The notes beneath the pieces were generated by a model. It ran no database searches, was not told the DNA's origin, and saw only the letters and a program-made list of their open reading frames with translations. A stretch of DNA of 34,021 bases from Desulfosporosinus sp. (GTDB taxonomy: Bacteria; Campylobacterota; Campylobacteria; Campylobacterales; Arcobacteraceae). How positions within the stretch are numbered: the first letter of the stretch is position 1; each line of letters opens with the position of its first letter. This document shows positions 26,780 to 30,575 of the stretch, in pieces. The stretch covers positions 8,610 to 42,630 of the forward strand of contig DYPS01000011.1 of the NCBI GenBank assembly GCA_020719775.1. Reading direction: 5' to 3'. A program made the translations under genes and the position numbers.

Positions 26780-29602
26780 TCATGTAAGATGATACTATTT
26801 GCGCAAGTTTTATAGCAGTTAGTTTGTGACATGATATTTTTACATTCCCTACTAAATATCTCCCTTGTTTCCGTGCTACTTTAGGTATTCTTATTTATTG
26901 CTTAAAAACATTGTGTCTTTTACGATCTATCCGAAAAAGTGCAATGCTCTGTCGTATGTCATTTAAATTATTTATTCCTAAATATTTTAACTTGTACTTT
27001 ATAAAGTGAAAATATCCATAGAACAAACTTGAAAAACTCTCTCCAACCATAAATAATGAACCTTTCCCAAAGAACATCGATTAAATGACTCTGTATTGTG
27101 TATTGATAACTTGAGGCAAACAGAGTAATAATCCAAGAAATTATGTAGCACTCTGGTAAAATAGACTGCCTTTTAAAATGTTCACTAATTTACGGATGAT
27201 AAATTGCCAAAAGTCTTTCGAACTGATACATTTTAATTTTCAATACTTAAAATTAATTAGCGAATAGCTACTTAAACCGAACTTACATTAAATACTAAAA
27301 TAACCTGTAACTGGCTTCTTAGTTTTTTGTTTTGATAAACAAATATCCAGCAATGTAGTTCATCCCTTGACAATATGAAATTTATTTGTTAGTGTGAGCA
27401 TAAACTCGGAGCACATTTGTCAGTATTTCTGGCTTTAGATAGTCAATGTGCATGTGAAGTGATCTACTAACATCAAGCTGGATAATTTCATCAACTTAGT
27501 TTTTATCTAATTTAGAAACTTGTTCAAATAGCTCCCAGTACTTTAGTTATTTTTTGAATGGGATAATTTTTGGCCACTTAACTGAAGATGGCATTTTGAG
27601 ATGATGCAAAATTTATTGATGAACAAGACTGGTATTTTTGCATACAAGCCTGAGTTGTATGGACTCTATTCCAAGATAGCCCTTTTTGGCTGCTAACCAG
27701 ATGCAATAGGGCCCAACAGTTTTTTATTTTAACATTTTTTACATTTTTTTTTACATTTTTTCCTTCACTTCAGTCTTATAGAATATCTTTTGCCTTTACG
27801 AAATGTCTTTCTTAGTCAATATAAGACTTTTTAAATATTAAAATGATTTTTTATTTTAGCTTCCCACTGCTTATTTCAAAAATGGAATTGAAATTTATGT
27901 GGATATTGAAAGATTCGCGATTATATTCGCTAATTCCTGTATGCACAAAAATTATTCTTCTTATGTCAAAATTGGCTATCTTTTACCAGTAACGACAGCG
28001 AAAAATCCCTTTGTGAATGAGGTTATCATTCCTTTACCTGATTAAAGTCTTTTTTTATCTTATCGTTTTTTTATAATAAAATTAAGGAGCTTCATCAAAA
28101 CTTTTGCTTTATTCAGTTTATCAACATTTTTACCAAGAGAGTGACATGCGAGCTATATTGGCTGACTTTTTGAGGATTTGTTATTTAATAAGTTTCGTTT
28201 TTTCATTATTCGTTGTGAAATTAGCAAAATTTTATACAGAAACTCTATATGAAGAGCACCATTTTTGGATTAAAGCTAAAGATTTTTGATTATTTAAAGA
28301 AAAGTGGAAAGAACAAAGTTGAATTGATCGTCTTATAATTTGCAGTAAATGGAGTTCATCTAAAAAATCTTGAAATATAAAATTTCAACAAAATAGAAGG
28401 AATATGCTTGTTGGCTCAATATCTTCGCTTTGCAAATTTACATATCCTTTGCATCTCTACTTTAATTTTATTTCGATTTGCTTTAAATTTACTTCATACT
28501 ACTATTTTTTGATTTTACTTAAAATAATGGGTCCAACATCTTTTTAATCAACTGTCTATCACTCTATTTAATCTTGCTAAAAACTTATGACAAATGAGAC
28601 TATTCAGCTTATAAAGATGCTTTTCTAATTTTTCTCATTTATTCGTCGTATGAAACGTATTCTTATCTGGTTGTAGAATTTACCATGAAACCTATTTTTA
28701 ATTGTTGCTTTTTCTTAATATTTATATACGTACATTTTATTGATTTTATATTTTTTAGGTCTGTATGTTTTTGTTACTTTCTTAGATTTTTTTTTCAATT
28801 GTAGTATCAATCGCATTTTAGAATTAATCTAAAGTTTTTATGCAGTTCAAAGCTGTCTTTCTACAAAATTATTGTCTTGATTATTCATTATGAATTAAAG
28901 AAGTGCTAATTTTTTTAAGCTATTATTTTGCCTGAACCCATTCATAATTTGTCTTCTAAATAGCACCAATGTAGAATTTTTAATAACTTGAAATCGTATC
29001 AAGTATTTTTTTGGATGATAAATTGAACCTAATATGATAAATTGATATACTTGTTGAGTTCGTCCATATTTTAAATACCTGCCGTTTAAATTTTGACCAT
29101 CATTTTTTTCTGTTGTTCTTTTTGCTTTTCAAGTTTTGCATTCCATAATCTGTAATTTTATCTTTGTTTTTCTAATTCTTGATTATGCAATCTCAAATTA
29201 TCGATTCTATTGGAAAGTTGCTTAGTAAGCTACATTCCCAGTCTGTAATTATTTTAGGAAAATAATTTTAGTGGCTAAAATATTTAATTTTGACACTTAT
29301 ATGCTACTTTTCTTGAGCATTCTCCCATGCGGAGAAGACTGTTGCTCAAAAATTGGTAGGTATTGTTGACATATTAATTATTGGACTCTAACAGTAATAA
29401 GATTGATACAGGAGGACAGTATTTACTGGTTGATCCTTCCGGAAAGATCGCACAGATCCTTTGAAAAAAGATGAAATATTTTTACGAAATCGATGTAAAA
29501 GTTCTTTTGGATCTAATTTCTTTCCTTGCTGTAGCTTATACCTTGACTCAGCATAGAATAGATCTATTTTAGTTCATCAAAGTCCTGAATCGTCTTAGAC
29601 AT
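26780..29602 (-). CDS. F-BAR-like plus TBC Rab-GAP fusion protein, 912 aa
   Basis: Coding is complement of 26780..29602 minus four introns (29388..29409, 29029..29050, 28714..28733, 26978..26997), 2,739 bases. Residues 1 to about 280 look like an F-BAR/BAR helical domain: FDELKEIYSMLSQG, an RNEIQKNFYIDFVKIF core, then EIFEPLKLFSENN and LEKQRENYRLWNAKLEKQKE, a pattern typical of the membrane-binding crescent. A charged linker of about 300 residues follows. The TBC domain spans about 605-880 with both catalytic fingers intact: I686-x-x-D-x-x-R692 (IQLDVSR) and YCQG with Gln724, then GMNYIAGYLF and WIITLFASSYQYT...DVLWERF. TBC domains stimulate GTP hydrolysis by Rab GTPases, so the protein is predicted to inactivate a Rab at curved membranes. 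The F-BAR call rests on pattern only; the TBC call is firm. The two halves are joined by the 20-nt intron at 28714. A separate start at ATG 28686 would make the TBC half a 628-aa gene, but then the F-BAR frame would run about 50 bases into it. The gene lies 133 bp downstream of KTI12. Confidence 0.85.
26978..26997 (-). other. 20-nt intron in the TBC domain
   Basis: Minus-strand GTACAAGTTAAAATATTTAG interrupts the last TBC helices. Splicing joins LWIFSLYK to EEIIEMTYDRALHFF. The unspliced frame reaches TGA a few codons later. Confidence 0.9.
28714..28733 (-). other. 20-nt intron joining the F-BAR-like and TBC halves
   Basis: Minus-strand GTACGTATATAAATATTAAG. Splicing joins EKIENQEN to KKQQLKIGFMVNSTTREEY and converts two overlapping frames into one. 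Length and donor match the other introns; the acceptor is AAG. This splice decides whether there is one gene or two. Confidence 0.72.
29029..29050 (-). other. 22-nt intron in the F-BAR-like region
   Basis: The minus strand begins GTATATCAAT and ends CATATTAG. Splicing connects NMDELNK to FNLSSKKILDTISSYEK and then NYEWVQAKEELKK, keeping the helical pattern. The unspliced frame stops at TGA soon after. Confidence 0.8.
29388..29409 (-). other. 22-nt intron in the F-BAR-like region
   Basis: The minus strand begins GTATCAATC and ends ACTGTTAG. Splicing joins SGRINQEILSS to ESNNEYVNNTYQFLSNSLL, with a split codon TAG (Glu) at the junction. Several frames are open locally, but only this splice gives an unbroken helical domain. 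Confidence 0.78.
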
Positions 29603-29735: not shown

Positions 29736-30575
29736 TCATTTTCTTTTATCGGCTTACACAAGAAAGTTCTTAAATGATTATTTTACAGATTTTAGACCGA
29801 CTGGCTTCTATTTTATCATGTTCACAAAATCTTTTTTTATCTTTTTTAATTGTAGTGCATTCCAATTATTTTTCAAAATGAATTTTCCCATCACAACTTC
29901 ATCGCAGATTTATTGACAAAGTTTATCTAATTCATATAAATAGTCCTATGAAAGTTTTGCATCCTAAATATTAAATTTTCTCTACTTGTTTAGTTGATAC
30001 AGGATCTTTTGATTTTTTAGCTTAAAATAACAAAACTTGTGCAATTTACTATACAGGTGTTGGCTCTTCCTCTCTTCTTTAGAATAAGGGAACATCCCAT
30101 CTATTTTTCAATTGAGGAGGCTCCATTCTTTTAGCTAAATCTTAAAATCTGAATAAAAAAAATATTACAATTATTGATTAAACTGAGACTTATTCTTGAC
30201 ATTTAACTCTCGAGCAGCTTCAATAGTAGTATTACAATAGACAACGCAATATGTAGTTTTTTGTTAACGTGCAATGCAAAACATTTGGTATCGATAGCCC
30301 TTAATATAATTGAGAGAGTCAGCAATAACGATGACTCCTTCATTCAAATTTTTTTATACTTAAAATTTGATTTTTCCTCTCATCATTTTTTCTGCTTATG
30401 AAGCTTAATTGATGAAAAATTTACTTTGATAGGATTAGTTTTTATCTACGTTTAAGGATTACTAATTAACCACGTATACTTTTTGATTGTACTTTGTTCT
30501 TAAATACTCTGCAATTTATTGACTTCTTGACGTTTTTCCGCTTCCCGGAATTCCACACATAACTATCAATGGCAT
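29736..30575 (-). CDS. KTI12: KTI12, Elongator-associated P-loop protein, 265 aa
   Basis: KTI12 associates with Elongator, which modifies wobble uridine in tRNAs; it is related to the tRNA-Sec kinase PSTK. The start at 30575 places the P-loop at residues 8-15 (GIPGSGKT) after MPLIVMC, exactly as in the family. Next come VYVVNEESL (family VVDDESL), VIVIADSLNYIKGYRYQMFC, TTYCVVYCNTT, LFEDLAKRMEPP, and KNRWDVPLF. The C-terminal part has DYLYELDKLCQEI and the helical LQLKKIKKDFVNMI that matches the family's C-terminal LRRLRR-F segment. Two introns (30149..30168 and 29964..29985) are removed; together they total 42 nt and restore the frame. The stop is TGA 29736-29738. Length is close to the usual 270-310. 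Glu codons TAG and TAA in NEESL support the code assignment. It lies 133 bp upstream of the F-BAR/TBC gene on the same strand. Confidence 0.95.
29964..29985 (-). other. 22-nt intron in KTI12
   Basis: The minus strand begins GTAGAGAAAA and ends AATATTTAG. It joins PVSTKQ to DAKLSEDYLYELDKLCQEI. Without it the frame meets TGA before the conserved YELDKLCQEI helix. Confidence 0.88.
30149..30168 (-). other. 20-nt intron in KTI12
   Basis: Minus-strand GTAATATTTTTTTTATTCAG. Splicing yields FNQELFEDLAKRMEPPQLKN and the conserved RWDVPLF. The unspliced frame loses this motif. Confidence 0.92.

Follow-up and report, generated by a model that had tools for sequence, protein, structure and literature searches.

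Does a short minus-strand region of ciliate type encode one protein in which a membrane-curvature domain is joined to a RabGAP domain? The question is raised by positions 29602-26780 of a 34,021-nt window, the whole stretch of DNA analysed here, which corresponds to 8610-42630 of contig C13 in a 2.85 Mb prokaryotic assembly. In an earlier note, made from the sequence alone, removal of a single 20-nt intron was proposed to join a BAR-superfamily-like helical N-terminus to a TBC domain. The reading that we favour, with moderate confidence, is that the region is a single nuclear gene of a ciliate, whose 912-residue product consists of a divergent F-BAR-like domain (residues ca. 12-268), a basic helical linker (ca. 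276-640), and a TBC RabGAP domain with both fingers (ca. 663-851), which would inactivate a Rab at a membrane.

Ciliate sequences in a prokaryotic assembly

Under genetic code 11, many contigs of the assembly, C13 included, contain almost no long open frames, while under code 6 they are nearly full; these contigs are thus interpreted as admixed ciliate sequence. Although it is rated 100% complete and 0.32% contaminated, this assembly (G000) contains at least 300 kb of sequence from a ciliate whose introns measure 20 nt (e.g. contigs C183, C81, C13, C42, and C52). The 20-nt introns of the ciliate contigs have the form GTA, A at -6, and TTYAG, and GTA..YAG units that are AT-rich, exactly 20 nt long, and carry A at -6 are strongly enriched there, TTTAG being counted 32 times versus 2 in the bacterial contigs. 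Units of 15-16 nt (GTA..ATTAAG) were also observed, 18 in ciliate and 0 in bacterial contigs.

The neighbours of the gene are ordinary nuclear genes, encoding an AAA/M41 protease, a WD40 protein, and KTI12. The KTI12 gene (window about 29736-30574, also on the minus strand), which apparently contains introns, is the immediate upstream neighbour, at a distance of 133 nt. Elsewhere in the window, positions 528-21950 of the plus strand form, in the ciliate code, a single Ser/Thr-rich open frame 7,140 codons long, with no Pfam match in its first or last quarter. On the minus strand of contig C183 (L003), reading by eye in the ciliate code beside a PF00566 match revealed a Sec7-like domain ahead of TBC, which probably represents the TBS fusion already known.

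Gene model

The region at 29602-26780 is a real ciliate gene on the minus strand, with TAA and TAG read as glutamine and TGA as stop (Table 1). The proposal of one 20-nt intron was correct in that the GT..AG 20-mer at 28714-28733 joins the frames, but in-frame TGAs are left if it alone is removed, and the 912-residue protein is obtained only with four short introns (22, 22, 20, and 20 nt). With start 29602 and stop 26780 imposed, exactly these four were recovered by Viterbi decoding under two intron penalties, using codon statistics that were drawn from the assembly's other ciliate contigs (about 49,000 codons); the intron-length and acceptor preferences were set by us from contig statistics after the model had been drawn by hand, and this recovery is therefore a consistency check and not a blind prediction. 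When the stop was not imposed, a truncated TBC was favoured by 1.6 nats (18.8 vs 17.2), a 3' end that the TBC homology argues against. Intron 4 has the typical 20-nt AT-rich GTA..YAG form, introns 1 and 2, both of 22 nt, being less typical. The introns from a first gene-finding run were wrong, its codon model being poor, and an alternative splice yielding ATVFSAWENAQEK in exon 2, noticed by eye, was dropped, as the unspliced open frame suits both the profile and the trained model.

Table 1. Features of the gene in window coordinates
Feature	Position	Strand	Remarks
Exon 1	29410..29602	-	ATG at 29602-29600; F-BAR-like region begins
Intron 1, 22 nt, GTATCAATCTTATTACTGTTAG, phase 1	29388..29409	-	Genome-trained Viterbi; no A at -6, weaker fit to the organism's intron form
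Exon 2, long helical stretch	29051..29387	-	
Intron 2, 22 nt, GTATATCAATTTATCATATTAG, phase 2	29029..29050	-	Genome-trained Viterbi
Exon 3, F-BAR-like region ends	28734..29028	-	
Intron 3, 20 nt, GTACGTATATAAATATTAAG, phase 0, putative fusion-making splice	28714..28733	-	Modal length, A at -6; acceptor AAG, not YAG
Exon 4, 572 codons, with the basic helical linker and the larger part of TBC	26998..28713	-	
Intron 4, 20 nt, GTACAAGTTAAAATATTTAG	26978..26997	-	Viterbi; crossed by TBC1D1 alignment
Exon 5, TBC C-terminal helices, TGA at 26782-26780	26780..26977	-	
F-BAR-like region, residues 12-268, introns 1 and 2 inside	28755..29569	-	8-sequence F-BAR HMM
RabGAP-TBC domain, residues 663-851, intron 4 inside	26966..27552	-	PF00566; PDB 3qyb
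Catalytic Arg finger R692 (IQLDVSR)	27463..27465	-	
Catalytic Gln finger Q724 (YCQGM)	27367..27369	-	

The C-terminal TBC domain

Judged by its sequence, the C-terminal half is with certainty a genuine TBC RabGAP domain in which both catalytic fingers are intact, as had been claimed. PF00566 matched residues 663-851 (E 6.1e-35; 121.3 bits, curated cut-off 25.2), the first 26 positions of the profile having no match in this protein. PDB chains of TBC1D4, TBC1D1, and RABGAP1 were retrieved with E values from 1e-20 to 5e-18, the best match being 3qyb of TBC1D4 (E 1.4e-20), and their Arg and Gln motifs aligned with those of this protein, where the IxxDxxR and YxQ fingers are represented by R692 in IQLDVSR and Q724 in YCQGM. 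Since Arg692 and Gln724 are both present, RabGAP activity is predicted. A Pfam search of this protein revealed no Sec7 domain, the partner that defines Sec7-TBC (TBS) proteins.

One gene or two adjacent genes

The fusion depends on intron 3, since its removal joins the upstream frame to the 572-codon open exon that carries the TBC domain. Its PWM score (4.78 bits) is close to the training mean (4.72), with an acceptor that reads AAG instead of YAG. In favour of the splice, scores as high as this were reached by 5 of the 152 AAG-ending 20-mers; against it, AAG-ending units show no enrichment at 20 nt (5 vs 4). Together with the lack of any orthologue found, this acceptor weakens the claim that the N-terminus and the TBC domain belong to one protein, but the near-consensus score speaks for it, and the splice is likely to place both halves in a single polypeptide.

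A less probable arrangement, which nevertheless deserves consideration, consists of two adjacent genes, one encoding a stand-alone F-BAR-like protein (exons 1-3, extended to a TGA at 28635) and the other a TBC protein starting from about ATG 28539. It would account for the F-BAR-like match stopping at residue 268, within exon 3, and for the non-consensus acceptor, and the 95-nt gap that it implies is possible in a compact genome where the upstream gene lies at 133 nt. However, the read-through extension shows no sign of coding (-0.25 over 32 codons), whereas the exon-4 frame is coding-like in the same stretch (+4.2 over 27 codons, and +4.7 to ATG 28539). Apart from its acceptor, intron 3 scores like the real introns of this organism, and an upstream 17-nt GTAACAAAAACATACAG, read off the sequence, would likewise preserve the fusion.

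The earlier note had suggested looking for the same architecture in other ciliates; searches for relatives gave none. Neither a protein search nor a TBC DNA pattern with TAR allowed for Gln revealed another ciliate-type TBC in the genome contigs, and none was detected in viral contigs or, with PF00566, in about 960 whole genomes (overlapping draws).

The probable F-BAR-like N-terminus

The BAR-superfamily character attributed to the N-terminus escaped standard models and emerged with a purpose-built profile compared against decoys. Pfam and PDB sequence searches with residues 1-284 gave no FCH, BAR, or PDB match, and the PF00611 (FCH) profile likewise gave none. The purpose-built profile comprised eight solved F-BARs recovered through PDB searches and aligned end to end with the N-terminus (residues 12-268 against positions 11-258 of the 283 in the profile), scoring 37.7 bits forward, with composition correction off, and 12.6 for the reversed sequence. 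The forward score alone was reached by two of 1,377 decoy segments drawn from the same assembly, the strongest decoys being coiled coils. None equalled the forward-minus-reversed difference, either with this profile or with any of eight leave-one-out profiles (8/8), a result whose strength should not be overrated since the decoys come from overlapping windows and reversal was adopted as a test once the coiled-coil decoys had been seen.

Other comparisons gave lower signals. A six-sequence F-BAR profile with composition correction on yielded only 5.9 bits (E about 0.5), a profile built from PACSIN1 and FES alone missed the N-terminal region, and a single-sequence hhalign comparison with six F-BARs was weak (19.5, with 1 of 60 shuffles higher); known F-BARs, when left out, scored 64 to 227 bits, far above this N-terminus. 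In the eight-sequence profile test, ACAP1 and endophilin were not prominent and APPL1 was only slightly so, and the signal thus favours F-BAR over other BAR classes. The direction test, in which the N-terminus ranked 1 of 1,126 with F-BAR, 3 of 1,028 with BAR_3, and 133 of 1,019 with N-BAR, indicated no preference for BAR_3 or N-BAR over F-BAR.

Structure prediction, recommended in the earlier note, agreed with a helical N-terminus and was otherwise uninformative: AlphaFold, run without homologues on one sequence that still included short pieces of read-through close to introns 1 and 2, returned a pLDDT of 44.7 and a pTM of 0.25. As no relatives were found, no alignment was available for a good structure model. 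Exon 4 was equally uninformative (pLDDT 39). Counting K, R, D, and E, residues 12-268 have a net charge of +21, and the linker (residues 276-640) is basic, with a net charge of +47.

Based on the full-length, direction-specific profile match and the all-helical prediction, an F-BAR-like N-terminus is moderately well supported, and residues 12-268 probably represent a highly divergent F-BAR, below the level of proof. That the single protein instead begins with a generic coiled coil or another helical dimer, such as a BAR_3-type domain, and is a coiled-coil-tethered RabGAP appears improbable: standard searches returned no F-BAR, coiled-coil decoys reached similar raw scores, and the BAR_3 profile places the N-terminus first by raw score (13.8 bits), but strong decoys score alike in both directions while the N-terminus differs by 18 to 25 bits, as no decoy does, and the direction test relegates BAR_3 to third rank and fails N-BAR.

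Proposed function

In the favoured one-gene reading, the N-terminal domain would dimerise and, through its net positive charge, bind anionic membranes, a preference for curvature being assumed by analogy with F-BARs. Its most likely effect would be to keep the dimeric RabGAP, with its TBC domain, at the bound membrane, where Arg692 and Gln724 would complete the active site of a Rab, accelerate GTP hydrolysis, and end the Rab signal locally. The basic linker could contribute further membrane or protein contacts. Nothing in the analysis pointed to the food-vacuole or contractile-vacuole location suggested in the earlier note. If the favoured reading is true, a single polypeptide connects the shape of a membrane with the termination of Rab signalling, a link usually established through separate proteins, and one more member is added to the known alveolate TBC fusions. 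In the papers searched, no protein pairing F-BAR with TBC came to light; we tentatively suggest that a ciliate lineage possesses an F-BAR/TBC fusion, possibly undescribed so far, coupling a curved-membrane domain to Rab inactivation.

Comparison with known systems

The best solved relatives of the C-terminal half are the RabGAPs TBC1D4, TBC1D1, and RABGAP1, which share the same catalytic domain (PF00566) and both fingers. Members of this group have N-terminal PTB domains, in contrast to the F-BAR-like region predicted here. The N-terminal half resembles FCHo2, PSTPIP1, Cdc15, Imp2, and FBP17/CIP4 in its end-to-end profile alignment, net positive charge, and helical character, but differs from known F-BARs in its very low similarity and its lack of a Pfam FCH match. 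Elsewhere, F-BARs are combined with SH3, RhoGAP, kinase, or muHD domains and are not known to be combined with TBC.

Among ciliates, Tetrahymena GFU1, which has a role in gamete fusion, has likewise received an F-BAR-like label, from predicted structure only, with TBC unmentioned in that report (PMC10246275). Sec7-TBC (TBS) fusions are known in alveolates, such as Tetrahymena TBS1 (PMC553965, PMC3143110), and similarly represent trafficking fusions with TBC in a ciliate. In TBS, however, the partner is an Arf exchange domain (Sec7), whereas in the protein proposed here it would be a membrane-curvature domain.
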